A stretch of DNA of 64,000 nucleotides from Telopea speciosissima (taxonomy: Eukaryota > Streptophyta > Magnoliopsida > Proteales > Proteaceae): positions 51,875,878 through 51,939,877 of the forward strand of contig NC_057926.1 in assembly GCF_018873765.1 (NCBI RefSeq), in the 5' to 3' direction. Under the pieces are notes generated by a model, which was not told the DNA's origin, ran no database searches, and saw only the letters and a program-made list of their open reading frames with translations. Shown here one piece after another: positions 3,432-62,670 of this stretch. Made by a program: the position numbers and the translations under genes. Each line of letters begins with the position of its first letter. Position 1 is the first letter of the stretch.

Positions 3432-3583
3432 ATCTCCTCCAGTTCCCCCAATGCCTGTAATTAGGAGGGATGGACCCCACCTGGGCAGAGTGTTCGGGTA
3501 GGGGTAGGGTGGTCATTGTGCCCTCCTTATTACAGGCACTGGGGGAATTGGATCGGGCAGGGTATTGGAGGGGACAAAGATCC
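3432..3583. repeat. Foldback element with shared ends and core
   Basis: About 30-bp arms (tcccccaatgcctgtaatta / taattacaggcattggggga type) around aggggtagggtggtcattgt. Outer ends atctcctcc and ggaggggacaaagatcc. Confidence 0.85.
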
Positions 3584-3846
3584 TACCCTACATACTCAAC
3601 TCTATCTTTTTCCTGGGGGCTTTCTTCGCTCGTTCTTATGTATAGGGAAGAAGAACACTGCATGGTCATGTGCAGTCTATGCCTAGACACATGCCCCATC
3701 AAATGACCGTCTCATCCCCTGCAAATGAAAAATCCCCCCAATCCATTTCCCTACACTTTCCCTCATTGGTCCCACATTGGTGCAGGGCCTGTGATGGGAT
3801 AGTGTTCTTCTTCAATTCCCTTTATATATAAAAAAAATGGCTTACT

Positions 3847-3965
3847 CAGTGAACAAGGCTCTCGCGATTGCAGGGTCTGGGAGGGTCATAATATATGCAA
3901 CCTTACTCTTGCTATTTTCCCAGAAATTGTTTCCAGACTCGAAATCGTTACCACTTGATTACAAT
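3847..3965 (-). mobile_element. Au-type SINE, partial
   Basis: On the minus strand: ggtaacgatttcgagtctgg, then aaacaatttc…taaggttgc, then gaccctcccagaccctgcaa and gagagccttgt. This is the Au SINE body with a decayed B box (TTCGAGTC). Confidence 0.65.
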
Positions 3966-4082
3966 GGAGCAATCTTACCGTTGCATCAAGGCTTGCGCTA
4001 AAAAAAAAAAATATCAACTCCATCTTTCTCCTTAATTAAATGGATCAACTTACATATATTTTTGTAAGTATTTTATTAATCT

Positions 4083-5317
4083 ATTTGTTTTTGTTTAAGT
4101 TGTTTTTTAGACCTGATTGAATTAGTGGTTCAGTTGGTCTAGTTTAATTTAGATGTTTAGTTTTTGGGGCACTGTTCTTTGTGCCACAGCGCAAGCTACA
4201 CCCAAACACATGGGGGTGGGCTCAATGACCACAGAGAACATTCATCCTTATTTTTTTTACCTAAAGATCCTACAGCCTAGTTGTTTTTCCCCTCTTTTTT
4301 TTTTTTTTTTTTGGCTTTTCTGCAATTCAAGGGTTGATTGGCCATCAGGGCCGTACAAGGAGGCAAGGAGAAGACCCAAAAGGGATCAAATTTCAAATAT
4401 GATACCCATAGGCCGGGCTCCACTTCTTAGAAAGCAAGTAAATGTGGACTTCATGCCGTTAAGGAGACTTGAGTCACTGATCAAGCTCCGGACGCAGTTC
4501 TCCCAAGGGAATAGTGAACCACCAGGGGCAAGCCCTGGATCGGCTGCAACATAGATGCTCAGTAAAATCATAAGAAAGAAACAAATGTCAATTGATTTCA
4601 GCATCTTTTTTATTTTATAGAAAGTATTTATGGATTGCATTTTTGTTTATGTAATGTAGAAGAATGATGTAGCAATTTGAAAATCATTGAACATAAGAAT
4701 GATTTAAAATTGTTATCTGCTAAATTTTAAATTCAAACTCAATCATATATCAATTGGATAAATTAATCAATAATATTTTGATAAATCGCATGTCAAATTT
4801 GGTGATCAATCTCACATATACGATCCCTAGCATAAGTTTTCTCGATTTTTTAACACCCTCCTCCTCGAATAAGTTCATGTTCAATTCATTTTCAAAACTT
4901 CGTAGACCTCTTTAAAATCCATTCTGACTTCCTAGTATGAAATGTTGACAAACTTGATGTGGGCAATATAAACCATGAAATTTAAACCCCAATTGAACCA
5001 TTGTGTCAATTATGAAGGCTACAATAGAATGAATTCTAAGTATATTAGGTAGCATGTTCTAATCAGGGTTTTAAGTTTTTCATTTTTCTCTTTAAGTATC
5101 CTGTTTTATATGGTTCAATCGTTTAAAAATAAAAGCCAGCCTCACTAATTCATATTGAGGTAAACTAAAGGACAATTTTGGTGAAGTAAGTTTAATTGAT
5201 TGCTTTAAAATCTGAATTATTTAAATCTCTACCAACTCCCCAATTAACCATTAAGCAAATTAAAATGATTTTTCTCTCCATCTACCCTCCTACAAAATTA
5301 TTTGCCACAAACATGAG
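4083..5317. repeat. 3'-flank duplication unit, copy 2
   Basis: Second copy of the 663-1617 unit. It is interrupted at about 4160-4640 by extra DNA: a damaged foldback, a T-run at about 4295-4312, and a short minus-strand frame with a hydrophobic start, which I do not trust as a gene. A more diverged trace is at about 24190-24480 upstream of copy E. Confidence 0.75.
4168..4238. repeat. Foldback remnant, GTTCTCTGTGC family
   Basis: ctgttctttgtgcc … acacatgggggtgggctcaa … cagagaacat; most of the right half is deleted compared with 35008 and 39523. Confidence 0.6.
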
Positions 5318-6814
5318 CTCTAATATCAAAATGTTCAATTCATAGACACCAGGATTCGGTTGTTGCCCATCCTTTCAATCTATCTTGTGCATGCGGCAGT
5401 CGATGAGAACGCGCTAGCATCTGGAATTGGAATTTCCGTCTTTCATGGGGCAGTTATTTCGCTCCGGCTGTATCTCTGCGTGGCCTCCGCCGCCACCACA
5501 CACACAGAACATATTCATTTTATTAAAGTAGTTGGAGTTTTTGGACCCCCTGTGGTTGTTGAGCAGAGGATCTGTTAACACCTTCATGTTCGGTTCAACT
5601 CGAAAGTTTGGATTTCTCACTCCGTAACAGAATTGAGAGAAGAGAAAGTGAAGATTGACAGAGAGAACGAAAATGGAGAATGGAAGAGGAGAAGAAGAAG
5701 GCTACGATCGGACCAAGGAGGTGAAGCAATTCGACAATTCAAAAATCGGAGTAAAGGGACTCGTTGACTCTGGCATCACTTCTATCCCTCGCTTCTTCAT
5801 CCACCCACCCGATTCTCTCCCTTGCACCGCCACCGCTAACGCCACTGTCATCGCAGCTCCTCCTCCTGCATCTAATACCATCCCCACCGTAGATCTCTCC
5901 GGCTTTGATTCAGACCGTAGATCCATCATCGTCGACCAAATCCGAGATGCCTCCCGTACGCTAGGCTTCTTCCAGGTCATCAACCATGGCATCCCTTCCG
6001 AAGTTATCGACCGTACGATCGCCGGCATCAAAGCCTTCAACGAGCAACCGATAGAGATCAAAGCACTCCACTACAACCGTGAGATGGGACGCAGTGTATT
6101 ATTTTGCTCGAACTTCGATCTCTACAATTCGAAGGCTGCCAGTTGGAGGGATACGATTTCATTAAGTTGGGGCCCCGATCTTGATATCGGTGAAATCCCG
6201 TGAGATCTGTCGGAGTGAGATTGTGGAGTGGGACCGGCAGGTTCAACGGTTGGGAGAGACGTTGATGGAGATCTTGTCCGAAGGCTTAGGGGTGGAGGGT
6301 GGGATGTTAAAGGCGTTATGCTGTACACAGGGGAAGAGGATGGTGGCCCACTATTATCCGTTCTGTCCTCAACCAGATCTGACGCTTGGGATTGCGTCTC
6401 ACACAGATCCAGGTGCGCTGACTGTGTTGCTACAGGACCAGATTGGAGGATTGCAGATGAAACACGGGGAGCATTGGGTGGATGTTCAGCCCGTACGTGA
6501 TGCTCTCGTCATCAACATTGGGGATATCCTCCAGGTACTTTAATTCTTTTTACCTTATCCAAAAAACAAAAAAACAAAAACCTTAATTCTTTCAATCCGA
6601 AGTCTGAACCAGGTTGTTGAACCATGTATAGGGTTTTAGTTTTTGGTATCAGGAGTCAGGACTCGTATTGGTCACCATCGATATACCAATCTGTATCCGA
6701 TCGAAAATTTAGGGTTCAAGCTGAATATCTGATATCATATTAGTCAGGTATTAGTTTCTGACACAATTGATATCAATACAGAGCAACCAATACACCCGAT
6801 TTAGAATTTAGCAC

Positions 6815-6961
6815 GTCTGCAAGGAGCCCAATACGCCAAGGGTGCTACCAGCCGTTGAGCTATGCCGCACACATCCCTAGGCATGCGCCAAGATGTGTGC
6901 CGCACAACTCAACTGTTGGATGCTCCCTGGTAGCATCTTGGGCGCTGGGCTCCCTGGAGAC
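6815..6961. repeat. Foldback element, GTCTCCAGGGAGCCC family
   Basis: Ends gtctgcaaggagccca and tgggctccctggagac, with inner pair gccgcacacatcc / gatgtgtgccgcac. In the intron of copy B. Sister at 32280-32431. Confidence 0.75.
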
Positions 6962-7445: not shown

Positions 7446-7636
7446 GAAAAAAGAATATATCTACTACCTGGGCATGTTCAGTGCACTGCCCGTGTGCACA
7501 GACATATGGGCGTACAAAATGACCTTGCCACGCCCCAGGAATTTTCGTTTTTCCAAGGTTGTGGCGATCATTTCGCACAACCCTGTGTATGGGCACAAGG
7601 GCAGCGCCCCATGCACGCCTAGGTAGCATTCTTTCT
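7446..7636. repeat. Foldback-like element, GATCATTTYGCAC family
   Basis: gtgcacagacatatgggcgt, aaaatgaccttgccacgcc and ggcgatcatttcgcacaacc, gtatgggcacaagg. Sisters at 29607, 50824, 58681 and a trace at about 9050-9110. Confidence 0.6.
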
Positions 7637-8063
7637 CCCATCTTTTTTTAATAAAATGAAAAATTAACTACTCCAAAGTATTGATTGAAGAATTTCTCTC
7701 CAATAAAATTTTTATATAACATAGTTTAAATAATATCATGACATATATTAAATTAAAGGGAAAATCCTTTTGTAAGTTGTAACAAAAGTTGGTTAAAAAG
7801 AAGCTGTTAATTTACTTTTTTTTTACTCTTTTAGTACAACACTGTCCTTTTACCAATGAAAAATCCTATCATTTAACATTTGTATTTCAAAAATGTGTAA
7901 GACAATGATAATATTTGAGAATGATATATTGGTAAGCAAGTTACTTTGAAATATGTGAGTCAACCCTAAAAGATAGCAAAATATTAATCTAATGGGTGAG
8001 GGATTTCTGGTCCGCATTGATAGTGGTGATTGGTTAGCTTTTGGGGACATTTGTTCGGATTCA

Positions 8064-8238
8064 GATCCTCTACTGCTGAGCTAACCGGAAGGACGGTACT
8101 GGCAAGACACAGCAAGGCGGGGAATGACTACCTTACCCCTACCCGAGCGCCTTGCCAAAGCAGGGGTAAGGTGGTCATTCACCGCCTCACTGTGTCACGG
8201 CAGTACTGTACTGCCGGGCAGCTCGGCACTAGAGGATC
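8064..8238. repeat. Foldback element, GATCCTCTAC family
   Basis: Ends gatcctctactgctgagct and gctcggcactagaggatc. The core pairs ccttacccctacccgagcg with gcaggggtaaggtggtcatt. In the intron of copy B. Confidence 0.85.
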
Positions 8239-8793
8239 CAAATTGCATTTGGTCCTAGGGTCTCAAGTTTGAGGATAGTTTCAGACATTTATAAATAGGG
8301 GGTAATGATTGGTGGGTCGATCGCTCCTGTACAAAAAGATTTCATTTTTCTCCGGCTTTTCTCCTAATCTAATACCCCTTTAGTTATTTATGCCCTTCAC
8401 GATTTCCCTATGCCCATTCATGAATATGAATTCCTTCACTGTGGCTTAAGGAAAATTCGATCCATATATTTATGTGTTTAATGTGTGGGATTTAAATTTT
8501 GTTGTTTTTTGGAGAAAGATGTGTAGGATTTGTTATTTTTTCAGATTATTTCCAATGATATCTACAAAAGCGTGGAGCACCGAGTCTTGGCCAATCATCT
8601 TCACCAACCGCGCATCTCAATTGCTACTTTCTTCAATCCAAGCAAGAGACAGGACTTCTATGGACCCCTTCTGGAGCTAATATCACCAGAAAAACCAGCC
8701 ATTTACCGGCCATTTACATTGTCAGAATTCTTAACAAGTTTTTTCACAATGGAATTGGGTGACAAGTCTTTGATAAGCTACTATCAACTGTGA

Positions 8794-10077: not shown

Positions 10078-10161
10078 AGATGACTTTTAACACTTTCATG
10101 TTTGCTTTCTGACTGCGTAACATATTTGAGAGAAGAGGAAGAGAAGATTGAGAGAGCGAAA

Positions 10162-11650
10162 ATGAAGAATGGAAGCGGCGAAGAAGAAGGATACGATCGG
10201 GCCAAGGAGGTGAACCAATTCGACGATTCTAAGCTCGGTGTAAAGGGACTCGTCGACTCTGGCATCACTTCCATTCCTCGTTTCTTCATCCACCCACCCG
10301 ATTCTCTCACCGCCACCACCACTGCCATCGCAGCTCCTCCTCCTGCTAATCCCATCCCCATCATCGATCTCTCCGGATTTGATTCAGACCGTAGATCGAT
10401 CATCATCGACCAAATCCGAGACGCCTCCCGTTCGCTGGGCTTCTTTCAGGTCACTAACCATGGCATCCCCTCCGAGGTTCTCGACCGTACGATCACAGCC
10501 ATCAAAGCCTTCAACGAGCAGCCGACGGAGATCAAAGCGCTCCACTACAACCGCGAGATAGGACGCAGTGCATTATTTTCTTCCAACTTCGATCTCTACA
10601 GATCGAAGGCTGCCACTTGGAGGGATACGATTACAGTAACGTGGGCCCCGAATATTGACACCGGTGAAATCCCGGAGATCTGTCGGAGTGAGATTGTGGA
10701 GTGGGATAGGGAGGCGCAACGGTTGGGAGAGACGTTGATGGAGATCTTATCGGAAGGCTTAGGACTGGAGGGTGGGAGGTTAAAGGCGTTGAGCTGTACA
10801 GAAGGAAAGACTATGGTGGCCCACTACTATCCTTTCTGTCCCCAACCAGATCTGACGCTTGGGATTGCGTCTCATACAGATCCAGGAGTGCTGACCGTGT
10901 TGCTGCAGGACCAGATCGGAGGGTTGCAGGTGAAGCATGGGGAGCATTGGGTGGATGTTCAGCCCATACCTGGTGCTATCGTCATCAACATCGGAGAACT
11001 CCTTCAGGTATTTAAATTCTTTTAATCTGAACCGGATGGTTGAACCGTGTTAGACCAAAACAATCACCTAACAATTTCTGGTTTGGTGTTCCTACAATCA
11101 CTTTTGCAAATTACGGACAGTTGCTACCGCTGTTGTTGGCTTGAGGCTAGGGCAATAGAGACTATTTATGTGGTTTTTTTAGCGTCCTCAACTATATATT
11201 CAGAGGAAAATTTTCTTTCACCCACAAATCTAAGATCATTATTACTCTCTTGCTACAGTAAATCCTAAATGTCCTTCACCATTATCCTACATCCATCCAA
11301 GTGCAATGATTGTCATAAGTGAAGGAAATTCTTCGTTAAAAAAAACTCAGCCCATATATTTATTTATATGTTTGATATGTGGGGATTTGTTATATTTTCA
11401 GATTATATCTAACAATTTATACAAGAGTGGAGAGCACCGAGTGTTGGCCAATCATCTTCACCAACCACGCATCTCAATTGTTGTTTTCTTCAATCCAAGC
11501 AAGAGAGAGGACTTCTTTGGACCCCTTCCAGAGTTGATATCATCAGATACACCGGCCCTTTATCGATCTTTTACACTGTCAGAATTCTTAACAAGGTTTT
11601 TCACAACGGAGTTGGGAACCAAATCTTTGATAGGCTACTATCAATTGTAA
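10162..11650 (+). CDS. 2OG/Fe(II) dioxygenase, ACC-oxidase-homolog type (copy C, intact)
   Basis: Exon 1 is 10162-11007 and exon 2 is 11402-11650; the intron is 394 bp (CTTCAG|gtattt … tattttcag|ATTATA). The product is 364 aa. The start is the ATG giving MKNGSGEEEG; the open frame extends upstream but only the part from this Met is conserved in the array. DIOX_N covers about residues 64-165, with LGFFQVTNHGIP inside. The 2OG-FeII_Oxy domain covers about 210-310. Iron ligands are H238 and D240 (SHTD) and H294 (GEHR); the 2OG clamp is R305/S307. The YYPFCPQPDL motif precedes the HxD. S-G-E-H replaces S-V-E-H of the other copies, a mild change. The clade also holds specialised-metabolism hydroxylases such as GSL-OH and BX6 (family knowledge); the substrate is unknown. 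The short linker (TATTTAIAAPPPA) and short intron make it the most compact copy. Confidence 0.9.
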
Positions 11651-15802: not shown

Positions 15803-15919
15803 GGAAGACTTATAACATCTTCATGTTTGCTTCTTCAACTCCAAGCTTGGATTTCTCACTGCGTAAGTGCGTAACAGAATTGAGAGAAGAGGAAGTGGAG
15901 ATTGAGAGAGAGACTGAAA

Positions 15920-25627: not shown

Positions 25628-27124
25628 ATGGAGAATGGAAGAGGCGACAAAGAAGAAGGATACGATAGGGCCCAGGAGGTGAAGCAATTCGACGATTCAA
25701 AAATCGGAGTAAAGGGACTCATCGACTATGGTATCACCTCCATCCCTCGCTTCTTCATCCACCCACCCGATTCTCTCCCCTGCACCGCCTGCGCCACCGC
25801 CGTCGCCGTCGCCGTCGCCGTCGCAGCTTCTCCACCTCCTCCTCCTGCAACTAATCCCATCCCCACTGTCGATCTTTCCGGCGTTGATTCAAACCGTAGA
25901 TCGATCATCGTCGACCAAATCCGAGAAGCGTCCCGTACGTTGGGCTTCTTCCAGGTCATCAACCATGGTATCCCCTCCGATGTTTTAGACCGTACGATCG
26001 CTGCTATCAAAGCCTTTAACGAGCAGCCAACGGAGATCAAAGCGATCCACTACAATCGCGAGTTGGAACGTAGCGTATCATTTTGTCCAAGCTTCGATCG
26101 CTACAGATCGAAGGCTGCCAGTTGGAGGGATTCGATAACAGTAAGGTGGGGCCCGAATTTTGAGATCGGTGAAATTCCGGAGATTTGTCGGAGTGAGATT
26201 GTGGAATGGGAAACGCAGGTCCAACGGTTGGGAGAGACGCTGATGGAGATCTTATCGGAAGGATTGGGAGTGGAGAGTGGGAGATTAAAGGCGTTGAGTT
26301 GTAGAGAAGGGAATATTATATTGGCAAACTACTATCCCTTCTGTCCACAAACAGATCTGACACTTGGATTTCAATCTCACACGGATGCACCAGCGATGAC
26401 CGTGTTGCTGCAGGACCAGATCGGAGGGTTGCAGGTGAAGAAGGGGGAACAATGGTTGGATGTTCTCCCATTACGTGATGCGCTTGTCATCAAGATAAAA
26501 ACCCCTCGTTCCTTTGTGAATGACAAAAATAGGATAATTGGTTCAATTTGGATCCTCTCTACTGTCAAGCTGCCCGGCAGACCCTGCTGCTGAGACGCAA
26601 CAAGACGATAAATGATACCGCCTTACCCCAACTTGGGTAAGACGCTCGGGCAGGGGTAAGGCGGTCATTCCCCATCTTGCTGTGTTTTGGCAGTAGAGTC
26701 CTATCGGACAGCTCAGCCGTAAAGGATCGTTAACTCTCACATATACATTCACCTGTTGGTACGAGTAGAGGAACCGAACCAAATGGAACAAGGGCAATTT
26801 CATCCTTCACCAAGGCTTACGGAAGGTTCATATATTAATATCTTTGATATATGGGAATTGTTTATCTTTTTCAGATTATTTCCAATGAAGGATACAAGAG
26901 TGTAGAGCACCGAGTCTTAGCCAATAATCTTCGCCAACCACGCATCTCAGTTAGTATTTTCTTTCGTCCAAAGTTTGAAAGAGGACTTCTATGGACCTCT
27001 TCCAGAACTGATATCACCAGATAAACCAGCCCTTTACAGGTCATTTACATTGTCAGAATTCTTAACAAGATTTCACGCAACAGATTTGGGTAATAAACCT
27101 TTGATAAATTACTTTCATCTGTGA
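25628..27124 (+). pseudogene. 2OG/Fe(II) dioxygenase copy E, deleted splice junction plus frameshift
   Basis: Exon 1 begins at the ATG at 25628 (MENGRGDKEE) and is open through DIOX_N, YYPFCPQT and the SHTD ligands. Homology to the sisters breaks at about 26495, after ALVI. The final codons (GDLLQ), the donor site and most of the intron are gone, replaced by about 300 bp of repeat DNA that includes a foldback element (26550-26728). Intron-like sequence resumes at about 26800, and exon 2 is recognisable at 26875-27124 after tttttcag. This exon is 250 rather than 249 nt: an extra base near TTTCGTCCAAAG shifts the frame downstream of the RISV motif. The open frame from exon 1 runs into the repeat and stops at 26593, lacking the distal histidine and the 2OG-binding Arg-x-Ser. 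Almost certainly non-functional. Confidence 0.85.
26550..26728. repeat. Foldback element, GATCCTCTAC family, in pseudogene E
   Basis: ggatcctctctactgtcaag to cagctcagccgtaaaggatc; core gcaggggtaaggcggtcatt. Flanked by GTT on both sides. A related uninterrupted sequence is at about 51183-51205 (gataggtggttgactctcac). Confidence 0.8.
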
Positions 27125-28213: not shown

Positions 28214-28395
28214 GGATTCAAATTCTTTACTGCCAAATTGCCCCAACTGTCGTGCTGTGCAGATACAACAAGGCAAAAATGACTGCCTTACCCTCACTTG
28301 GGCAAGCCACTCTGACAGGGGTAAGGGAGTCATTGTGCGCGTTACTATATCTACCAGCACGGCACAGAAAGAGTAGCTCGACAATGGAGAATCCA
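28214..28395. repeat. Foldback element, GATCCTCTAC family, upstream of copy F
   Basis: ggattcaaattctttactgc … caatggagaatcc; core pair actgccttaccctcacttgg / gacaggggtaagggagtcat. Confidence 0.75.
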
Positions 28396-28673
28396 AATTA
28401 TCTATTGGCGTGTCAAAGAAAGTCAACGAAGAATGGGAATCCGAGATTGGAGTTTGTGTTACATGTACAAGGAAAGAGAGGTTTTTGAAGCTTTTGTAAC
28501 TGTTGGCCTTGCATGCATGTGCTTCCCCACAGACAACGCTGACCCTAAATAAATAAATAAATAAATAAGTAAATAATTTCTGGGTTGGAGTTTTGGACCA
28601 CTCGAATTTTGAAATTCTCACTGCGTAAGAGAATTTGAGAGAAAAAGGAAGAGAAGATTGAGATAGAGCGAAA

Positions 28674-30478
28674 ATGGAGAACGGAAGAGGTGAAGAACAA
28701 GAAGAAGAAGTATATGATCGAGCCAAGGAGGTGAAGCAATTCGACGATTCTAAACTCGGTGTAAAGGGACTTGTCGACTCTGGCATCACTTCCATCCCTC
28801 GTTTCTTCCTCCACCCACCTGACTCTCTCCCCTGCAATGCCACCGCCATCGCAGCTCCTCCTCTTCCTGAAACTAATCCAATCCCCACCGTCGATCTCTC
28901 CGGCGTTGATTCAGACCGTAGATCATTCATCGTCGACCAAATCCGAGAAGCCTCCCGTACGTTGGGCTTCTTCCAGGTCATAAACCATGGTATCCCTTCC
29001 GATGTTTTCGAACGTACGATCGCTGCTATCAAAGCCTTCAACGAGCAACCAACGGAGATTAAAGCGCTGCATTACACTCGCGAGATGGAGCGCAGAGTAT
29101 CATTTTGTTCAAACTTCGATCTCTACAGATCGAAGGCTGCCACTTGGAGGGATACGTTAATATTAAAGTGGCGCCCGAATTTTGACATCGATGAAATTCC
29201 GGAGATCTGTCGGAATGAGCTTGTGGAGTGGGACCGGCAGATCCAAGGGTTGGGAGAGACGTTGATGGAGATCTTGTCTGAAGGCTTGGGAGTGGAGAGT
29301 GGGAGATTGAAGGCGTTGATTTGTACGGAAGGGAAGACTATGTTGGCCAACTACTATCCTTTCTGTCCACAACCAGATCTGACGTTTGGATTTCAATCTC
29401 ACACTGATGCAGTAGCGATGACCGTGTTGCTGCAGGATCAGATCGGAGGGTTGCAGGTGAAGCATGGGGAGCATTGGGTGGATGTTCCGCCCGTACGTGA
29501 TGCTCTCGTCGTTAACGTCGGAGATATGCTCCAGGTAAATCTAATTCTTTTAATCTGAACCGGATGGTTGAACCGTGTTAGACCCAATACATTGGTTAAA
29601 AAGGCGAAAGGACCACTGCACTCCTTATCGGTGATCATTTCGCACGCCCTGTGTCAGGGCAAAGGGGCAGCATGCGCTACGCGATCAGCTGACATTCTCT
29701 TTTCCACTAAGTTTGTTACCAATATAATAATTATGATATCTTAATCATTGGTACTATTGATAGGATCATTATCGTCTCTTGTTCCCTGCCCGATAGAGTG
29801 GTCCAGTTCCACTCATAAGTGTCAGAAATGACAGTCTAACCTCCTGTCTGAACACACTGCCCGAGGGAGATTAAAACGTCATTTTCGTCTCCCTATGAGT
29901 GGAATTGGACCACTACAATAATTTGTAACCACAACAATTATATAGTTACTTATAGAAAAATATAAATATTTATATATTTTTTTGGGATTCGTAAATAAGA
30001 GGAAAATTTTCGTTCATCCATAGGGGAGGATTCACCCACTAATCTAAGGTCATCATTACTCTTCCAATACTATATGTTGAAGGTTGTAAATGTCCTTCAT
30101 TATTATCATATGGTTATCCAAGTTGAATGATGACCATTGATGAAGGAATTATTCCATCATTATGGCTTAAGGAAAACTCGATTCATATATTTATATGTTT
30201 GATAAGTGGGAATTGTTATCTTTTTTCAGATTATTTCCAATGAAGAATACAAGAGTGTGGAGCACCGAGTGTTAGCCAATAATCTTCGCCAACCACGCAT
30301 CTCAATTGGTGTTTTCTTCAATCCAAGCAAGAGAGAGGACTTCTATGGACCCCTTCCAGAGCTGATATCACCAGATAAACCAGCCCTTTACCGGTCATTT
30401 AAATTGTCAGAATTCTTAACAATGTTTCTCAGAACAGATTTTGGCAATAAACCTTTGATAAATTACTTTCATCTGTGA
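28674..30478 (+). CDS. 2OG/Fe(II) dioxygenase, ACC-oxidase-homolog type (copy F, intact)
   Basis: Exon 1 is 28674-29534 (287 codons, CTCCAG|gtaaat) and exon 2 is 30230-30478 (ttttttcag|ATTATTTCC); the intron is 695 bp. The product is 369 aa. DIOX_N spans about 69-170 and 2OG-FeII_Oxy about 215-315. Ligands are H243 and D245 (SHTD) and H299 (VEHR); the clamp is R310/S312. E and F form a subgroup: both have GFQSHTDA before the ligand region where A-D have the GIA type, ANYYPFCPQ instead of the AHYYP or GHYYP of B-D, and ANNLRQPRIS in exon 2. Substrate-pocket differences around the HxD are therefore likely. Upstream, the conserved W-box block of C, D and E has been deleted, so regulation may differ. 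It is the last copy of the array. Confidence 0.9.
29607..29702. repeat. Foldback remnant, GATCATTTYGCAC family
   Basis: ggtgatcatttcgcacgccc, gtgtcagggcaaaggggcag; in the intron of copy F. Confidence 0.5.
29798..29916. repeat. Foldback element, arms GTGGTCCAGTTCCACTC
   Basis: gtggtccagttccactcata pairs with tatgagtggaattggaccac. The centre has ctgcccgagggagattaaaa and cgtcattttcgtctcc. In the intron of copy F. Confidence 0.8.
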
Positions 30479-31380: not shown

Positions 31381-31696
31381 CGTCATCATTGTTGACTGTG
31401 CATGCACAGGCCCTTTTTTCGCTTTTAGATATTGAATATGTATTCCTACCAACAGCTACCTAATGCAGTTGGTGAGCTGTCATGTGCTTGTGTCAAGTTC
31501 GAATCTCCTTGCTGGTACCTTTCCCCCTCTCTATTCCCTCCCATCCTATAAAAAGTAAGCTATATATAAAAAGCTCCCAATTCCTCCCAAAAAAAAAAAA
31601 AAAAAAAAAAAATGTATTCCTATATTAATTTATAGAAATTTAAGCACTATAAGGAGCAGTGCTAATTTCTTTTTCTTTTTTTCTTTTGGGGGTGGG

Positions 31697-31810
31697 GGAT
31701 CTTTGTCCCCTCCAGTGCCCTGCCCGGCCAGTTTCTCCAGTGTCTCTGTAATAAAGGGGTACAATCACCACCCTACCCCTACCCAAACACTCTGCCCGTA
31801 TGGGATCCGG
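31697..31810. repeat. Half foldback with reversed core
   Basis: tgtcccctccagtgccctgc end and ccaccctacccctacccaaa core in reverse orientation; no partner arm seen. Confidence 0.45.
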
Positions 31811-33834: not shown

Positions 33835-33890
33835 TGAATTTGTGGGATCAAATCCTAGATCTTGAATAATTATCACCTCCAATTTGTGGG

Positions 33891-34020
33891 CACCTCCAAT
33901 TCCTCTAATAGGAGGAGTGGACCCCACCTTGAGCAATGTTTTCGGGCAGGGGTAGGATGATCATTTTCGCCCCCATGTGAGGAATTGGAGGAATTGAAGG
34001 GGGCAATGAATTGGAGGGGA
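33891..34020. repeat. Foldback element with shared ends and core
   Basis: cacctccaattcctctaata arm, core caggggtaggatgatcattt, right arm gaggaattggagga followed by ttggaggggacaatgattcc. Confidence 0.75.
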
Positions 34021-34036
34021 CAATGATTCCCTAGAT

Positions 34037-34629: not shown

Positions 34630-35365
34630 AGTTTTGGATAAGGGTGAAACAGGGACGGGTTTGTAAAACCTTAGCCCAACCCTGAGTCCTCTTAACTCTA
34701 CTCAAACCCAACCCGGCCCCAGGTCAGGCGAAGATATCACATTCCGGACCCAACCTTGCCAGGCTCAACCCAGCCCAGTCCAACCCTGATTGACCCTAAT
34801 TTTTGCTAGGGCCTGGTTGGCCCTGATTGACTAGTTTCATGTGATTGGGTATTGGTTTATTTCATACTCAATTAACCATTAGACTTTTCTTTAGGTTAAA
34901 AAACTTGGCCTAATCTTAAAATTTTAAATACTTTTTGTTCAACCGATATTGTTTTTTTTTTTTTTTTTGGTAAACAATAGATAATTAGATAATAAACAAA
35001 AGGGAGAATGTTCTCTGTGCCGGGGGCGCATGCTATGCCTAGACACATGGGGGTGGGCGCAATGACCACTCTGCCCCCCAGAGTGGCAAGCCCATGTGTC
35101 TAGGCGCTGCCTGCACTGCGGCACAGAGAACATGAATCCTAAACAAAAATTGCAAAATGTAATCAATAAATTGTAAAGCATAACCTAACATAGGGCCAGG
35201 CCTGGCCGGGGTTAGCCTGAGGCTTCAACCCTGGCCCAGTCCAACCATGACCCGGGCCTGAAAATTTCAACCCTAACCTGCCCTCAAGGTTGAAAAATTC
35301 AGCCCAAGCCTTGTTCGGGCTCAAGACGGGCTCGGGCCGACAGGGCCAAACTTACACCCCTAGTC
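34630..35365. repeat. GGGTTGGGC-rich dispersed repeat with nested insertions
   Basis: Skewed text (cccaaccctgag…, cctggcccagtcc, ggctcgggccgacagg) ends cttacacccctag. It recurs at 36985 (ataggggtgcaagtttgg) and 37700-37895. hAT-like ends are possible. A T-run and a foldback (35008-35133) are nested inside. Confidence 0.45.
35008..35133. repeat. Foldback element, ATGTTCTCTGTGC family
   Basis: Perfect 13-bp ends atgttctctgtgc / gcacagagaacat. Inner cctagacacatgggggtggg / cccatgtgtctagg. Core gcaatgaccactctgccccc. Confidence 0.9.
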
Positions 35366-38724: not shown

Positions 38725-38893
38725 GGGAAAAAGTTTTCTGTCCGGGAGTGTGGCCTACGCTCCCACTCCCATGAGTCTATCTCTCTCCTCCCCATGTGAA
38801 AAGACACCTCTACCCCCTTGTTTTAAGGAGGAGAGAGATAGACTCATGGGAGTACTGGCATAGGCCACACTCCCGTACAGAAAACTGCTTCCC
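38725..38893. repeat. Foldback element, GTTTTCTGTCCGGGAGTG family
   Basis: gggaaaaagttttctgtccg with cgtacagaaaactgcttccc; long inner arms gagtctatctctctcctcc / ggaggagagagatagactc. Confidence 0.9.
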
Positions 38894-38948: not shown

Positions 38949-39100
38949 GACTGCTGCCAGCTCGCGTGGCCCCTGCACCAGCTTGGGAGCCAATAGGAGC
39001 ATTGGCATCGGCATTTAACAGGGTCTGGCTCATAGGGGTGGGGTGGTCATTTTCACCCTCCATGTGTCTGGGTGCAGGGACCACATGACCAGGCAGTGAT
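38949..39100. repeat. Foldback element with shared core
   Basis: gactgctgccagctcgcgtg … accaggcagtgatc, inner cccctgcacc / gggtgcaggga; core ggggtggtcattttcaccct. Confidence 0.65.
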
Positions 39101-39463: not shown

Positions 39464-39522
39464 TTTCCATAACAAGATATTGGTGTTCTACGTTTAATTG
39501 CCCAAATGCGAATAATGGCCAA

Positions 39523-39648
39523 ATGTTCTCTGTGCAGGGGGCACAGGCTGCGCCCAGACACATGGGGGTGGGCGAAATGACCATCTTGCCCCCCTGAATG
39601 GCCGGCCCATGTGTCTGGGCGCAGGCTGCGCTACGGCACAGAGAACAT
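39523..39648. repeat. Foldback element, ATGTTCTCTGTGC family
   Basis: Same perfect 13-bp ends as 35008-35133, inner cccagacacatgggggtggg / cccatgtgtctggg, core gaaatgaccatcttgccccc. Confidence 0.9.
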
Positions 39649-39918
39649 CTGCCCATAAACAGTGCATGCTTCTTATAAAGAACAGAAATATCACACAAGG
39701 CCTTTCCAATGCATAAAACCCTGACTATTGAGCACATAGATAACTGTAACTGTAAACTAATAGTATTCTTCAAATGCAGAGGATGAAAATGAATTTAACA
39801 GCAACTCATATGATTAATCAGTTATGCATCAGGTGAAGTTAAGCAATCCCCTTCCTGGTACATTGTTTTCTAAATCACTTGTAATCTCACAAAGAGGAAG
39901 TCATTAGATCCGAATTCA

Positions 39919-47325: not shown

Positions 47326-47400
47326 AGAAGGTGGTGTTACTTCTCAGGCTTAAGCTAGCCGTTACTCTAAAAACGTGTTTTTGGTGAGTCACTTGGAATT

Positions 47401-47554
47401 TTTGTCCTCTCAAGTGTGGTGCACTGCAAAAGTCCATTGGATTGTCGTCGAAAACATGTTTTTGGATTTTAGAGGTGAACAAATGTACTGCCCATCGTCG
47501 GATGCACTTTAAGGTGCATTAGGTAGTGTACCGCACTTGAGAAGATAAAGATCC
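47401..47554. repeat. Foldback element, CTCTCAAGTG family, upstream of the ZF-HD gene
   Basis: tttgtcctctcaagtgtggt with taccgcacttgagaagataa and a following agatcc. Confidence 0.75.
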
Positions 47555-47810
47555 AGTGATTCTTCGTATTTGTAGTTAATCAATAATATTTACCATATTT
47601 AGGGTACATTTATATTTAGGGTTTTTAACCCTAATTTGGAATGTGAAATAATACGGTGTATCATAGACTTCCATTATAATATTTTGATCGGATTGATCGA
47701 TCGATCGTAACTCTCAAACACCATTCGATCGTATTATGATATTCCAATTATATTAAGGTTGCATGCATACGAATAGAATCAGATTAAAAAGTCTACTAAT
47801 TGCAATTAAG

Positions 47811-52050: not shown

Positions 52051-52265
52051 TATTTATTTATTTATTTTTTGATAATCACAAATAAGAAAAAATGTATTTT
52101 AATTTTTATTTATTTATTTCTTACCAAACACACACGTACTAAAGGAATTGACTAATAGACCATGAATGCCAAAAGGGGTGAGCAGGTTCATTCACCATTA
52201 TCATTTGAGAGAGAGAGAGATAGAGAGAGTTGGTTCTGAGCATGTGGCATAGGGAGCAAAGGATA

Positions 52266-52446
52266 CAGATCCTCTACGTCGCGCTGCCTGTAGCAGCCTG
52301 AGCGGCGAAGACTGAGCCGCACGTGCAAAGATCGTCTTACCCGTGCCCAAACACCTTGCCCGAGCAGGGGTAAGGCGATCATTACACGCGCGGCCCAGTC
52401 TGTGCCGTACAGACCGCTACGGGCAGCTGCGCCATAGAGGACCTGT
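52266..52446. repeat. Foldback element, GATCCTCTAC family
   Basis: cagatcctctacgtcgcgct with gccatagaggacctg; core cgagcaggggtaaggcgatc. Confidence 0.8.
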
Positions 52447-53649
52447 GTTGAGTAAGCACATCAATAAGGAGTGAATGATTTCGTAAATAGGGGCAAAGAG
52501 GTCATTTTAGGTGAAGAAGAGGTTGATAGAGAAAGGGTGCTAACACATATCCTCCAGTAACGGCTCAAAAGATCCTTTTTCCTTAAAAGGTGTCATTTTG
52601 CATTCCCTCCATGTATGTAATTGTAAACTCACTTGCTGAATATCTAATGTATGAAAGACCCTTATTAAATGAATAAAAACTCTAATCAAAATCTAAGAAA
52701 TACGTATATCACTTGGAAATCTATTACAAAAGAGATCGATCCATCCACTTCAGATGACCACACCCCTGCTAGGCAGCTTGTGGAATGGCTCTCTAGCAGC
52801 CCTTTTTGGATATATAATCCCCAACAATTTCAACTGTGGGTCGACTGCACAGCGATGGGCCAGATTTTTGCACAGCAATGGCCAGGAGCCGGGAATGTTT
52901 ACTAGTAGTGGTTGCAAGGGCTGCCTGCTCCTGCAAAGCTGATAGGCAGCGGTTTCACATTGTTGTGTCCTTATGGGTTCTTCTAAGACCTGATTCTTGT
53001 GAAATATAAAAATAAATAAAGAAATAATCAGAAACTCTCTTACAGTTTAGCTCAAAAAAGATTTTCATTAATGATTTTTTTATAAATGAATCATAAACAA
53101 AAATAAAATGTACATTTTCATTGGATCAAGATTCTCTCCACTATTCCCAATATCAATCCCCATTTTAACTTTTCTCACATTAAAGTTTTCATGATTTGCA
53201 GAAGTGCAAACCCTCACATTCTTGGTTTCAAATTCCTTGGACTCACAAGTGTTGAAACCTTCCTCATTCAATCCAACATTAATATTATGTGAGTATTGTG
53301 TTTTAGCAGCCAACACCTAAAATTGTTGCATGGTAGACACTGATGATATGCATCAGTTAACCTAGGGCTATTGTCAATGTGGAAAGAATCATCTGATGAC
53401 ATGGAAATTTCTCACCTGGTTGTTCAAAAGGAAAAAAAAAAATCCATTGGTGAATTTGGGAGATTCTGATTTTCTTGCAAACTATTCTAGGAAAACATGT
53501 TCTCGTCCAAACCAATCATTAAGTGGGGCGGCTTGCCTCGACTTTCCATTCCTTTGCTTTAACCTTTGATCCGTAATTGTAGATCTTTAGGAATTAAATT
53601 CCAACTTCTGATTTACATCAGCAAATAGATTGCCTGTAGAAGTAAAAGA
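52447..53649. other. Intergenic, nothing recognised
   Basis: Short frames only (52669-52905 +, 53080-53316 -), without domain features. Confidence 0.45.
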
Positions 53650-54305
53650 ATATTGTTTTGGTTGGAATAATGAAATTTGTGTGGCTCCTAAATTTTTTTT
53701 CCAGCAATCGAGTCAAAATGGAAACGGTATAGGAATAGGGTTCTCAACGCAAGGAATCTGTTGTGAACATTTAATAAAAATTCAAGAAGAAGAGTTTGAT
53801 CCAATTTCATTAGTTTACTCCAATATCTCATTTTCTTCTATTGTATGGATCGAGTAATTTTTTTTCTAAGTAAGATATGATGGCATTGTTTTAATTTTTT
53901 TTTTATTTATCAATCTTACGATGTACTTATATTGAATCAAGTGAATACAGCCTTCCTTCCTTGTATCTTTCCACTGTAAAGGTATTGCTCTTCCAGCGAG
54001 GTTTACATGACAGTCCAATAACCACTAACACATACTCCAAAAATAAAACGAGGATCCGGTGTCTTTGTCATCAGAATTATGTGTCCCAATAAAATAAAAA
54101 GTATTTTTGTTTATAATCAATAGGAAAATTTCTTTGACTCCCTCCCTTAGACTTATATTCTATTTACTCAAGCTCTCCTATTTAAACTTTTGCATCTGAT
54201 TCCCCCCAAAAGCAAACTCTTACCTCTTTTTCTCCCATGTTAATTTAAAATACCAAAATTACCCCTTCATGATTGAATTGTGTCATTTATTTTTTATTTT
54301 TTTTA

Positions 54306-54467
54306 GGGAAGCAAATTTTTGTATGGGAGTGTGGTCTACGCCAACACTCCCATGTGTCTATCTCTCTCCTTAAAACAAGGGGGGCAGATGTGTCTTTTCA
54401 CATGGAGAGAGATAGACTCATGGGAGTGCTGGTGTAGGTCACACTTCCGGACAGAGAACTTTTTCCC
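54306..54467. repeat. Foldback element, GTTTTCTGTCCGGGAGTG family, flanked by TTTTTTTTA
   Basis: Sister of 38725-38893. It sits between two copies of TTTTTTTTA (54297-54305 and 54469-54477), the second shared with the neighbouring long-TIR element. Confidence 0.85.
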
Positions 54468-54477
54468 TTTTTTTTTA

Positions 54478-55662
54478 AGGAAAATTTCTTAGATCCACTA
54501 GATAAGAAAATAAATTACTAGATAAGTAGGTTTAAAATTGTTTTACATTTAGTAGTTTTGATTTTGAAAATATTTACTTAATCCCCATAGTTAGTTATTA
54601 TTTATGGTTTCAAAAAAGAAACAAGAATAAACTTCCTAAAATACCCTAACATCTCTTGTTCTCTCTCCAGTTTTTTTTTCTTTCTTGTTTTTTACATTTT
54701 TATTCAATTCTTTTATTTTTAATCACATTTGATGGGACCCACCACAACCTCCTTTCTCCTCAGAAGGCCGCACCATCCCCGCCGTTGCAATCCTGCAACA
54801 TCACCTAGCTCCCTCTCCCTTTCCTGCTCTCACTCTCCCCTCCCCTGCAACCCCCCCCCCCCCAACCACTATGCTCTCATGACAAGATGAAATTTGGTAA
54901 TCTTAAATCATATTCCATTCGTTTTATAAAAATGTACAGAGACACCTTCATTTCTTTATACAGTCAAAGATTTAGTTTCTTTGTGATTTTGTCTTTCAAT
55001 CATTCCAATTCAAATATTTTTTATCACGTTTGGATGGATTTTGAAATTCTGAAGAAATCATAGAATACAGTTCCCTTATCTCTGAGAATCCACACAAAAC
55101 CACATACTCCGTGACTTACTAATCACCCTCGTGAATCTGCTCAAGAAACCAAGAAATTTCAAAATCACTGGCAGAATTCACCAAAATTGTGACGTTCAAC
55201 CACCCAATTCTATATATGGATCATAACCCAAGTCTGAATTCCATCAAACCGGACTACAAAATATGATTAAAAAATGGAGAGAGATGATGAGATCACAGTG
55301 AGGTAGGGTTGTAAGGTATGGGAGAGTAAGAGTGGGAGAGGGAGAGGGAGGGGAGTTAGAAGTTGGGGTTAAATTGCAGGGTTGTAGCAGCGAGGATGGT
55401 GTGGCCTTGAGGAGAAAGAAGAAGGAGGAGGTGGTGAGTCCCACAAAATATAATTAAAAATGAAAATAAAAATGGAAAGAAGATGAGATACTAGGGTATT
55501 TTAGGAAGTTTAAATTTTATGTTTTCTTGAACCATAAGAAATAACTAACTTTGGGGATTAAGTAAATATTTTCAAAATCAAAACTACTAAATGTAAAACA
55601 ATTTTTAAACTTACTTATCTTGTAATTAATTTTCTTATCTAGTGGATCTAAGAAATTTCCCC
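54478..55662. mobile_element. Long-TIR element with 9-bp target duplication (MULE-like)
   Basis: Ends are inverted copies starting (A/G)GG(A/G)AAATTTCTTAG and extending at least 185 bp (…gatccactagataag…, tttacatttagtagtttt…), with looser similarity towards the centre. It is flanked by TTTTTTTTA (54469-54477 and 55663-55671). The paralogous empty site at about 60561-60569 has a single TTTTTTTTA followed by ttaacag. No transposase frame. Confidence 0.75.
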
Positions 55663-56460
55663 TTTTTTTTATTAACAGAGGTGGGAACTAAGCCATTTAG
55701 GAAAGAAAAAAAAAGCGATTTGCATATTGAAGTTGAAGATGATTCCTCTGTTGACTATAAAGAAACACCTACGAATAAGAAGAAGAATGATGCACGTATT
55801 GCTGCACTGGTCGAGTTTTTTGTGGACCGGAAGATCACATTTGTTGGATTGGGGATTAAAGGGAATGCGGCAAAGGTTTGTGGAACTAGAAACTTTGGCA
55901 ATCGATGCATAAGATTTTCTGGTATGTACAATAGTCCCACAACGGTCCTATCCCACCCTTTGATGGCTGACATCTTCGTCGGCCCACTACGGATCAGGTA
56001 GTCCTTTCTAGGTGGCTCCACCCTGCTCCAGTACCCTTTCCCGGCGGCAGGTAGTCCTTTCCTAGTGCCTCCTACTCTGGCACCAGGTCGCCCCTCCCAA
56101 GTAGCCAACCACAAAGGACGGGTCAATGAAAACACCAATTGATACGATTGGAAGAACTCACCCTCATAAACTGGTCCACAAGGGGAGAGAGCCCAATATT
56201 ATATATGCCTACATCCAATCCCTTATGGGACCGATGTGGGACTATTGTACATAACAGATGCCTAATTGGGTCTAACATAGCGACTAGGAGGCTAGTGTGT
56301 TGAAAGATGAGCAAATTGGATATGCCGCCGTCCATTGTTCTCTTGCAGTAGCTATGGGAAGAAAACTCCAGAAAATATAGAGTTTTATCCCTGCAATCTA
56401 GTCGAAATGGGAACGGTGTAGGAATAGGGTTCTCAACAGGAACATCCTGTGGAAGGTATG

Positions 56461-56563: not shown

Positions 56564-56746
56564 ACCCCCTCACGTACGTTCATGCGGTGACCCCTTTACT
56601 AATATTCCAGAATTTTCACTGAATGGGGAGGGAGAGGTGTGAGTGGAAAGGTTTTGAAACTCAAAATGGGTGTATTTTTAGGTCTGGATCCGTCGCTTCG
56701 AGAGGATCGATCTTCAAGAGGTTAATGGGCTGAATTTTTATTACCT

Positions 56747-56910
56747 GCGGTTCCCCTGCCCGGTACGGTTCCCTCGTGCCTCTAATAAAAGGGGGGTGGA
56801 CTCCACCCGAGCAGTGTGTTCGGTCAAGGGGTGGAATGATCATTTCAGTCCTCCTATGAGAGGAACCGCACAACTGTACCAATCAGTGAACCTCAGGGGA
56901 TAAATGAATT
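56747..56910. repeat. Foldback element with shared ends and core
   Basis: tgcggttcccctgcccggta and cctatgagaggaaccgcac; core gtggaatgatcatttcagtc. Confidence 0.65.
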
Positions 56911-57945: not shown

Positions 57946-58016
57946 CTACTCTCATAGGGGGCAGAAATGACTACCCTACCCCCTGCCCGGGTGGGATCCA
58001 CGCCCCCCTAATAGAT
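57946..58016. repeat. Half foldback with reversed core
   Basis: cagaaatgactaccctaccc then ctgcccgggtgggatccacg, the reverse of the 60710/62484 core. Confidence 0.5.
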
Positions 58017-58370
58017 GTAATGAAAAAAACAGAGAGGCAGGCAAATGGAGACGATAATTTTCCCTCTCTGCGATCTCATTCTCCTTCTTCTTCTTATGCT
58101 TAATTAATAAACTTAAAAGACGGTTCCGTAGCAGTTGGGATTGGAATCGGCCTTCAAGAAAATCAAGAATCGCTCCATATATTAAAAAACAAAAAATTTC
58201 TAGGGTTTCAGGTTTGAATAGGCTGTATTGGATCGGTCGGAATCAGGATCGACAACGACGGAGCGATTCCCAGCATGACCTAACTTCATTCTACCTTTCT
58301 CCATCTGTTCTCATATATTTTGATGTTTCCAGTGATATATATCTACCAGTGTAGCTCTAGCATCAAGAGA

Positions 58371-58544
58371 GGATACGGATCTTCTACGGCGTGGGCTGCC
58401 CGTCTTGCCGTGCTGCACATACACAAGGCGGCGCATATTGATCGCCTTACCCCGGCCCGAGCGAGGGTAAGGTGGTCATTGTGCATGGCTATGTGTTTGC
58501 GCAACACAGGCAGGACAAGGCAGTGCACCGTAGAAGATTTGTGT
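58371..58544. repeat. Foldback element, GATCCTCTAC family
   Basis: ggatacggatcttctacggc with gcaccgtagaagatttgtg; core gagggtaaggtggtcattgt. Confidence 0.8.
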
Positions 58545-58680
58545 TGGTCGAGAGAGGAAATGTTTGAAGTTATCGGATACCCACTTGATTTGTTGGAAGA
58601 AAGATCACTACTATGGTTATTTCCAATGGGTACTTATTTACATCAGTATTTTTTTTTTTATTATGTTTTTGGGCAAAAGA

Positions 58681-58800: not shown

Positions 58801-58879
58801 TAACGTTCTTTCTCCCTATATTTATTATCTTTTCTGTATATCTACATTGTGTCAGAAGAAATCATGCAATTCACTAATA

Positions 58880-60700: not shown

Positions 60701-60709
60701 CAGCAAGAA

Positions 60710-60885
60710 TTTTTATCCTCTCAATTAGATTGCCCGTACTTGACGTCAAGTACATCTAATAGAGGGAGGTGGACCCCACCTCGGGCAGTGTGTTTGGGCA
60801 GGGTGTAGGATAGTCATTTCTGCCTCCTCTGTTAGATGTACTTGACATCAAGTATGGGCAGTGTAATTGAGAGGATAAAGATCCC
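60710..60885. repeat. Foldback element, arms CTCTCAATTA…GTACATCTAATAGAGG
   Basis: ttttatcctctcaattagat / gtaattgagaggataaagat ends and gtacttgacgtcaagtacat / gtacttgacatcaagt inner arms. Core ggatagtcatttctgcctcc. Near-identical sister 1.8 kb away. Confidence 0.9.
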
Positions 60886-61140: not shown

Positions 61141-61288
61141 TTCATCCTCTCAAGTGTGTGTACAGCAGAGTGCATCCGACAGTGCAATGCACTTGAGAAC
61201 ATGTACTTGGTCAAGTTCGGTGCATTGTCCACTGTCGGGTGCCCTTAAAAGATGCATTGGACAGTGCACCACACTTGAAATGATAATT
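61141..61288. repeat. Foldback element, CTCTCAAGTG family
   Basis: ttcatcctctcaagtgtgtg with caccacacttgaaatgataa; several inner gtgcattg…cagtgca pairs. Confidence 0.7.
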
Positions 61289-62036
61289 ATAGTATACGTA
61301 CCTCGCTTGTTTTAGTAGTAGTAGCTATTGCTTGATGAGGATGAGTTGGATACTCATACATGATCCAATTGGTTTTAGTCAAACGATAGATTACTTTGTG
61401 GTTGTTTCTTCTTCGCATAATAGACAAAAGTTGTCTTGAGACCAATTTTACTGGATTTGTAATCCAAGACAAGCTTTTCTCCACTAGTAACCTTCCACAT
61501 TGATTCATCTTTAGCTTGTGGACTTGCCCTAGACAATAATGACCCTTGCAACCTTTGTATTTAGGTAGTGCAAGATGAGTTCTTGATCTGTGGGATCAAA
61601 TACAAATCCAATAGGGATTCATGGGATATGATGATGGAGAAGGTAATTGGAACGAACAAAAGTACTGATTGAACCAAGAAAAGTTTTTGCGTTTGTGGCG
61701 GTGGGTCTATGAAGTGTGAGTCATTAGTGAAGTATCATGTAAACTAATGAAATTGTACATGAAATTTTGAGATATTGGAGTAATCTAATGAAATTGTATT
61801 TGAAATAAAAATTCTAGGACTTAGTGGGTTGATGCAGAAGAGTAATGGGATGAGATGCAGGGTGAACCGTGGAATAGCAGCATCCAGGGTGCAGTCTGGG
61901 CTTGATGAAGAAGCTCGATCGGAGGCTACAAGCTCGGGGTTTGATAGAAAGCAACACAGAGGATGGAGAGCAAATGAGAGTAGATGGAGATGGGGTTTAA
62001 GCTTTTGTAGAAACAACGATGTGGAGAGAAGAGAGG
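61289..62036. other. Intergenic, nothing recognised
   Basis: Frames of 73-97 codons without family features; the region ends at the (GTTTT)n tract. Confidence 0.45.
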
Positions 62037-62047
62037 TAACTGTTTTG

Positions 62048-62108
<61 letters not shown>

Positions 62109-62330
62109 GCCTGGAAAGCTAAACCTTTTAAATACGTAATTAGTGTCATCAGAGCATAATATAAACTTAACAATAGTAAAATTAGCAGTTGTGTCCGCTA
62201 ATTCAAGAACCAAAGGGAAGCAGTTCCAAGGAATATTACTATTGTTTGGATTAATTAAACTAAAGTGGATGTTTTTTGTAGTACACCACACTTCTTCTAG
62301 CAAATGTCCTGATCTTGAATTAAACTAAAG
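62037..62330 (-). mobile_element. Probable LINE 3' end with (AAAAC)n/poly(A) tail
   Basis: A (GTTTT)n array and a T-run (62037-62104) form the tail of a minus-strand unit. The preceding minus-strand frame (…IPWNCFPLVLELADTTAN…) resembles the RNase H/linker end of L1 elements. Weak identification. Confidence 0.4.
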
Positions 62331-62483
62331 AGAGCTAACTGTTAGTTAGCAGAGGGGAGAGAGAAAGATTACACGGGAAGAAATCTAATCTTAAACTCTT
62401 TTAGAGATAAACTCTCACGGAGGAGGTATTGCTTATAGTGTCTAGAGTTTAGATCCAAGCCTATCCACATCTAATTGGACGAA

Positions 62484-62670
62484 TTTTTATCCTCTCAATT
62501 ACACTGCCCGTACATGATGTTAAGTACATCTAATAGAGAGAGGTAGACCCCACATGGACCCCACCTTGGCCAGTGTGTTTGGGTAGGGGGTAGGATATTC
62601 ATTTCTGCCTCCTCTGTTAGATGTACTTGAAGTCAAACACGGGCAGTGTAATTGCGAGGATAAAGATCCC
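62484..62670. repeat. Foldback element, sister of 60710-60885
   Basis: tttttatcctctcaattaca … cagtgtaattgcgaggataa then agatccc. Inner arms slightly decayed (gtacatgatgttaagtaca). A short internal duplication of gaccccac is unique to this copy. Confidence 0.9.

Follow-up and report, generated by a model that had tools for sequence, protein, structure and literature searches.

Short foldback elements with common tips and diverged arms in Telopea speciosissima look like a large family of mini-transposons

Results

Foldback elements and their families

We analyzed short palindromic (foldback) elements in a 64-kb stretch of the Telopea speciosissima genome (contig NC_057926.1, positions 51875878-51939877; hereafter the window), in which the GC content is 36-42% per 4-kb step. 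The host genome comprises 823 Mb in 1287 contigs. The elements, which we sort into types A to F, share outer tips and in part an inner core. We consider it likely that they are palindromic, non-autonomous mini-transposons of the Mutator-like element (MULE) type and constitute a large, diverged family, in which the tips are held, the arms diverge faster and palindromy is inherited from the founders. An earlier note on this DNA had described the arms as exchangeable between a fixed frame and a fixed core; to us the group appears to be one large family of mini-transposons that have diverged, rather than a modular element of a new type.

The foldbacks are genuine and well above chance. At a score of at least 40, 29 inverted-repeat pairs were found in the window (a few of them AT repeats) versus 0-1 per dinucleotide shuffle in ten shuffles, and at a score of at least 44 there were 24 versus none in all ten. 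A stricter filter for length and low complexity retained 28 foldbacks. The earlier count of about 38 palindromic elements had the right order of magnitude but was slightly too high, given the 28-29 obtained by filter. All six elements named at that time are present, but they are not separate families: 3432, 33891, 56747, 60710 and 62484 belong to one family, A, and 8064 belongs to family B. A profile of A, seeded with the five elements and so matching them by construction (E 5e-42 or better), picks up further window copies at 31691-31809 (6e-20), 29759-29913 (5e-17) and 57949-58062 (1e-15). Family B has other window copies at 52258, 26546, 28214 and 58371.

A larger sample comprised the window and 28 further loci from the same genome (288,128 bases) and gave 47 entries for A and 17 for B in which both halves are present; at least two loci (L021 near 6660 and L016 near 9836) are entered under both families. 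Since the 28 loci were all picked for carrying the exact right tip of A, the sample is biased for right tips, but not for the other elements in these loci. De novo detection in the 288 kb yielded 141 foldbacks, including 34 singletons. The largest similarity cluster contains 63 and takes in window copies of A, B, C, E and F. For the 60710 element, a first look gave 1975 candidates, and 40 scored genome copies, itself included, have 90-100% identity.

Common tips on several interiors

The 16-nt end GAGAGGATAAAGATCC has 567 exact matches genome-wide (293+274), versus none (0+0) for a reversed control, which bears out the earlier claim that outer ends are common to families. Within the window the exact end is found only at 60869, and the other named elements carry variants. 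Tip words are nonetheless in excess there: TTATCCTCTC occurs 4 times versus 0.03 expected, ATCCTCTC 9 times versus 1.8 and GAGAGGAT 8 times versus 1.4. Tips of window pairs beat shuffles at p≤0.05 in 76% of comparisons within A (n=67), 75% within B (n=40) and 24% between A and B (n=130). With one copy taken per family, tip identity is 11/16 for A and B, 12/16 for B and F, and 10/16 both for A and F and for F and D.

Arm types a, b and c, and also family C, which lacks the core, are all bounded by the same exact end, as expected if fixed tips are set on several interiors. We sampled 90 exact-end occurrences at 88 loci from the first 100 places listed, all of them from contigs C1 and C2. One place is represented twice, and one locus has three ends. 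The core scores above every shuffled score in 62 of the 90 and does not do so in 27, and one is too short to judge. A partner tip at a score of at least 22 accompanies 63. Several of the core-less ends are of C type, and others are truncated or have no visible partner tip.

The C copies at L016:5001, L025:4985 and L028:4985 carry GAGAGGATGAAC, or a close variant of it, as an internal echo of the tip. Locus L042 has three exact right ends within about 170 bp, which are tandem partial copies of the right half.

Target duplications and mobility

The earlier note had suggested looking for target duplications, and these are present at about 9 bp. For the 62 entries of A and B that have both flanks, lengths of 8-11 bp were tried at a score of at least 6, with swapped flanks as the null. 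Duplications were detected in 32 of the 62, versus 1.0 expected, a few at odd offsets; 20 are 9 bp long, 5 are 8 bp, 4 are 10 bp and 3 are 11 bp. Among 100 inward-facing tip pairs, 38 have at least 8 of 9 duplicated bases (chance about 0.3 per 100 by hand calculation), and 35 of these span 100-190 bp. The duplicated pairs include types a and b, the core-less C, and a 38-bp element (L062:23-60) that consists of two tips with almost nothing between them and has an 8/9 flank match. Because several b copies (in L005, L021, L036, L052 and L058) have exact 9-bp duplications, subfamily b moves as a unit. A 4.7-kb tip pair in L025 with an 8/9 duplication was considered as an autonomous element and rejected, as its tips belong to two different elements. 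When 7-11 bp were allowed for 17 window elements, the best match was 9-10 bp long for seven of them, one of these matches being a T run, and 7 bp long for four, one of these being imperfect; six gave no match.

The sequence GRATYTTTATCCTCTC or a near variant lies at both ends directly inside the duplications, and the tips start with G. Duplications of 9 bp and GG tips fit the Mutator-like superfamily, and both target site duplications of about 9 bp (20 of the 32 are exactly 9 bp) and terminal inverted repeats (TIRs) starting with G are found here. The elements are short, have terminal repeats and reach high copy number, as is typical of miniature inverted-repeat transposable elements (MITEs); their non-coding nature was judged by length only. 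Membership of the hAT MITEs, with an 8-bp duplication, was rejected on the basis of the 9-bp mode (only 5 of 32 are 8 bp). The 2-3-bp (TA/TAA) duplication of the Stowaway/Tourist type is unlikely given that duplications of 8-11 bp, the lengths tried, are far above the null.

Because elements with different arms and the same tips, as well as the two-tip element, carry duplications of about 9 bp, one MULE machinery probably moves all of these elements. The shared tips and the duplications of a, b and C copies thereby lend support to the earlier suggestion of one transposase acting on many structures.

A core common to families A and B

Alignment of the cores gives mean z values against shuffles of 9.7 within A (26 pairs from different subfamilies), 10.8 within B (10 pairs) and 5.1 between A and B, where p≤0.05 in 80% of 40 pairs. 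Since the cores align within A, within B and between the two, we interpret the core as homologous text and reject chance likeness of GC-rich text; the earlier claim of a central motif common to families holds to this extent. As plain words, core pieces are only mildly enriched in the window (GGTCATTT, 5 versus 1.6 expected; AAATGACC, 4 versus 1.4; GGGGTA, 17 versus 10.9; TACCCC, 15 versus 13.7). A core common to every foldback is ruled out, as 39 of the 43 motif-bearing foldbacks are inside the 63-member cluster and only 4 of the 78 foldbacks outside it carry the motif.

In B, the motif belongs to the palindrome on both sides, yet it is conserved; therefore, palindromy alone does not speed change. 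The better conservation of the inner motif GGGGTARGGTGGTCATTT than of the arms may reflect functional constraint. By eye, the loop appears flipped in two B copies (window 28215-28400 and L013:7394-7561).

Arms diverge within families

The arms had been described as unrelated, which stands between A and B but not within either family. Arm alignments score above shuffles at p≤0.05 in 47% of comparisons between different subfamilies of A (n=79), 33% within B (n=40) and 5% between A and B (n=140). As the groups do not differ in mean aligned identity (0.74-0.78 throughout), our conclusion depends on the scores versus shuffles, and the pairs compared are not independent of one another. For eight A types, each represented by a consensus or a single copy, we compared the inner arms of both sides. 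Mean z is above 2 in 90 of 112 between-type pairs, a comparison that includes the stretch beside the core, which adds to likeness; the 22 non-aligning pairs mostly involve type h, the right arm of the 29751 copy, or type a. Between families, arms are at chance for A and B (5% of pairs with z>2, from 20 of the 47 A left arms compared with 34 B arms) and for A and F (6%), whereas B and F arms show a weak relationship (26% of 272 pairs).

Arms of the 63 clustered foldbacks, with the outer 20 nt and the central 64 nt masked, form largest groups of 19 and 10 at E 0.01 (127 links versus 1 in shuffled arms) and a largest group of 30 at E 0.05 (138 links versus 5). Judged from these sequences, arm similarity is a continuum with real gaps.

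Running pairwise identity in A was calculated for 33 entries outside subfamily a, chosen by a simple filter through which one a copy and one B copy slipped. The core has 0.67-0.76. On the right side the mid-arm has 0.49-0.56 and the tip 0.67, on the left side the mid-arm has 0.46-0.50 and the tip 0.50-0.59; the value for the outermost flank is 0.25-0.31. The values for B (17 entries) are 0.56-0.73 for the core, 0.33-0.56 for the arms, 0.52-0.63 for the tips and 0.28-0.36 for the outermost flank. In both families the change in conservation is graded, not block-like. Together with the 90 aligning A pairs, this speaks against arms as freely exchangeable cassettes within a family. Arms unrelated to one another between a fixed frame and a fixed core were not found within A or within B, where arms align beyond chance. 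The exchangeable look of the arms is probably for the most part an effect of divergence, and most of the pattern can do without arm exchange.

Some of our observations nevertheless favor exchange. If recombination or template switching moved arms or half-elements from one element to another within a fixed frame and core, giving rise to new subfamilies, then families such as A and B could have a core in common and arms that are not, and a palindromic, B-like core could occur with A tips or arms, as it does in 3 of 79 A-type elements (window 29751, L025:7271 and L016:9836). Subfamily b (19, 16 or 15 copies depending on the filter) is a further case, with a left inner arm nearest to c (27/31, 27/33) and a right inner arm nearest to e (28/32, 27/31). 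However, the two arms of b itself align at 27/31 with gaps (z about 9), and for this reason the mosaic is suggestive only. A stronger claim for b was lowered on this ground and because the underlying 19/19 classification is circular, b being defined by it. Moreover, type e is represented by one copy in the sample (L025:7271), with arms that are alike, both containing GTAGGTTCCTCTCATAGG, and a palindromic core. Subfamily b may be a mosaic of the c and e arm lineages, a suggestive but unproven hint of rare mosaicism; for most of the pattern, the mosaic formation by recombination proposed earlier is not needed. With 90 of 112 between-type arm pairs aligning, we regard modular exchange as unlikely.

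Palindromy is probably inherited from founders

Two-sided changes in the hairpin are in excess between subfamilies, at 29 of 83 pairs in B (0 of 500 shuffles as high) and 13 of 41 in A (11 of 500). The test used 5 B and 6 A window sequences, with two incomplete A copies left out; structures came from the same alignments, and relatedness can inflate the counts. Such changes, and the match between the arms of one element (mean z 7.4, n=11), are consistent with hairpin-templated repair or replication keeping the arms of each copy alike during free drift. A direct test did not detect this. Left-right identity within a copy is no higher than that between copies, either in subfamily a (0.870 versus 0.870, n=28, p 0.51) or in b (0.771 versus 0.775, n=15, p 0.61), and an arm finds its best match in the other arm of its own copy in only 6 of 78 A and 3 of 17 B elements. 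These results speak against template switching, raised in the earlier note, as an ongoing arm correction in copies, and we consider correction within each copy very unlikely, although it could still act in rare founders. Because the two arms within a copy resemble each other no more than arms from separate copies do, copies seem to inherit the two arms of their founder and then decay separately; palindromy would be set at the founder level.

Selection on the hairpin at the RNA level (small-RNA precursors or similar), keeping arms complementary as the sequence changes, is barely credible: the two-sided changes and a slight surplus of G.T mismatches over A.C in core-defined orientation (176 versus 137, with 147 other), which fits G.U tolerance on one strand, are in its favor, but the surplus is small, the copies are related, no Rfam match to these elements was found in the window at gathering thresholds, and transposition alone explains copy number and target duplications.

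Individual elements and neighboring features

The coordinates of the elements are listed in Table 1. A 117-bp palindrome at 33716-33832 (84-86% complementary) with A-like TCCTCTCCAAT tips directly adjoins the A element at 33863 and has a marginal match to the A profile (E 3). By eye, an element of about 1.2 kb with long inverted ends (GGAAAATTTCTTAGATCCACTAGATAAG... / ...CTTATCTAGTGGATCTAAGAAATTTCC) at 54482-55665 adjoins a D-type foldback.

Table 1. Elements in the window. Numbers in brackets are the positions by which elements are named in the text.
Element	Position	Strand	Remarks
A-type, arm subfamily a (= 60710)	60707..60884	+	No flank duplication found
A-type, subfamily a (= 62484)	62481..62669	+	Flank duplication CTAATTGGAC/CTAGTTGGAC
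A-type, c-like arms (= 3432)	3425..3583	+	Outer arm bases kept on right, gone from left arm
A-type, arm type d (= 33891)	33863..34029	+	Exact flank duplication CCTAGATCT
A-type, subfamily b (= 56747)	56732..56908	+	Inner arms: left c-like, right e-like; right boundary approximate
A-type, c-like right arm	31690..31809	-	Left part not recognizable
A-type, palindromic core	29760..29930	-	AAAATGAC left as well as GTCATTT right; boundaries approximate
A-type	57949..58062	-	Right end not recognized
B-type, palindromic core (= 8064)	8056..8244	-	Flank duplication GACCAAATG/GAACAAATG
B-type	52258..52453	-	No flank duplication found
B-type	26546..26734	+	No flank duplication found
B-type	28215..28400	-	Loop sense opposite to most other B copies (by eye)
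B-type	58371..58547	-	
C-type	47386..47562	+	Tips shared (TTTTTGTCCTCTC / GATAAAGATCC), interior different and core-less; no flank duplication found
F-type	35002..35139	+	Arms with CTAGACACATGG, core AATGACCACTCTGCCCC; exact flank duplication TAAACAAAA
F-type	39515..39656	+	No flank duplication found
F-like	7455..7640	+	Arms near some B arms (z 6.5 and 4.8 to best B arm)
E-type	38954..39096	+	AGGGGTGGGGTGGTCATTT core; CACCCAGACACATGG in one arm on other strand
D-type foldback	38725..38893	+	Separate similarity cluster, without core motif; flank repeat ATTATATAT/ATTAGATAT
D-type foldback	54305..54468	+	Same cluster as 38725..38893; 9-base flank match is a T run and proves nothing

The window also encodes a cluster of DIOX_N/2OG-Fe(II) oxygenase reading frames (5655-6543, 10102-11025, 15902-16837, 25628-26593 and 28674-29558; the scan left out 6204-6543), with MITEs between and near them, as well as a ZF-HD gene. 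The sole RNA-family match in the window is an Rfam group I intron at 38245-38373 on the minus strand (59 bits). It is not one of the elements described here, and we take it to be, perhaps, a fragment of the plastid trnL intron that moved to the nucleus.

Discussion

A proposed diverged family of palindromic mini-transposons

Given the tips, duplications and arms described above, we propose that one MULE transposase, or a few close ones, recognizes the tips in trans, so that any interior bounded by tips could be moved. The A elements would have descended from a palindromic ancestor, with the tips held by transposase binding and the inner motif GGGGTARGGTGGTCATTT held by some constraint. Arms would diverge faster, and old subfamilies would come to look like different arms between a fixed frame and core. 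Each subfamily may have been amplified from a palindromic founder, the copies inheriting both arms and decaying arm by arm. Families A and B/F could represent older splits of the same layout, and C would share the tips only. Rare recombination between subfamily founders is possible in this scheme but not needed.

Several observations weigh against this proposal. The arms of A and B cannot be aligned (5% of pairs beyond chance), so that for these two families the description of one core with different arms stands, and common descent of their arms is only assumed. With one copy per family, tips of A and D (6/16) and of B and D (7/16) are at chance level. The left tip of A is hardly better conserved than the adjoining arm (0.50-0.59 versus 0.46-0.50), and the right tips are biased by selection of the loci. 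The excess of two-sided changes requires founders that in some way remain or turn palindromic, and the halves of b point to two arm lineages. Finally, the six window elements without a flank duplication (of the 17 tested) include 60710, and some of the remaining window matches are short or T runs.

A bolder version of the proposal would give the inner motif a role of its own. GGGGTARGGTGGTCATTT could be a working internal signal of a MULE MITE clade, for example a second site for the transposase or a site for a host factor, held across families whose arms have diverged beyond recognition, with new subfamilies arising through rare half-element recombination that founds the palindrome anew. We regard this combination as doubtful. 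Were the inner motif functional, elements of this kind would contain a second signal that one would not expect in them.

The proposed family of diverged mini-transposons indicates that deep divergence of palindromic MITEs can mimic cassette exchange. The 567 exact ends, the several arm types and the two-tip element also form a well-populated natural series in which to ask on which segment of a MULE MITE its movement depends.

Comparison with known systems

Literature searches by topic words and by six element sequences returned no report of this family, which is no proof of absence, and scans of viral contigs for the core and ends gave 0 matches. MITE families with common tips but unrelated interiors are ordinary, and the relationship of C to A is such a case. 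MULE-derived plant MITEs are short, have GG-tipped terminal inverted repeats and duplications of about 9 bp, and occur in many copies with several interiors per tip. The elements described here resemble them in being short, in their GG tips and duplications of about 9 bp, in their many copies and in having several interiors behind one tip. They differ in that a conserved inner motif is common to arm families that do not align (A and B).

Tm1 of root-knot nematodes, a host in another kingdom, joins Mutator and foldback features according to the title of its report (PMC3169594), and the likeness is by title only. A precedent for the layout is Galileo, an element of the P superfamily in Drosophila, which serves as a counter-example to the earlier statement that no family with this layout had been described: the same central region occurs with TIRs of three subfamilies, and foldback-like repeats are present in several subfamilies, with chimeric copies (PMC3573991). 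Galileo has 7-bp duplications, a length of about 1,640 bp for two copies, and twelve chimeric two-TIR copies without matching duplications (PMC3573991). The elements described here are shorter than Galileo, and several b copies have matching duplications, unlike those chimeric two-TIR copies. They resemble Galileo in the combination of one central region with different terminal arms, the cores of A and B aligning at a mean z of 5.1 and their arms at chance.

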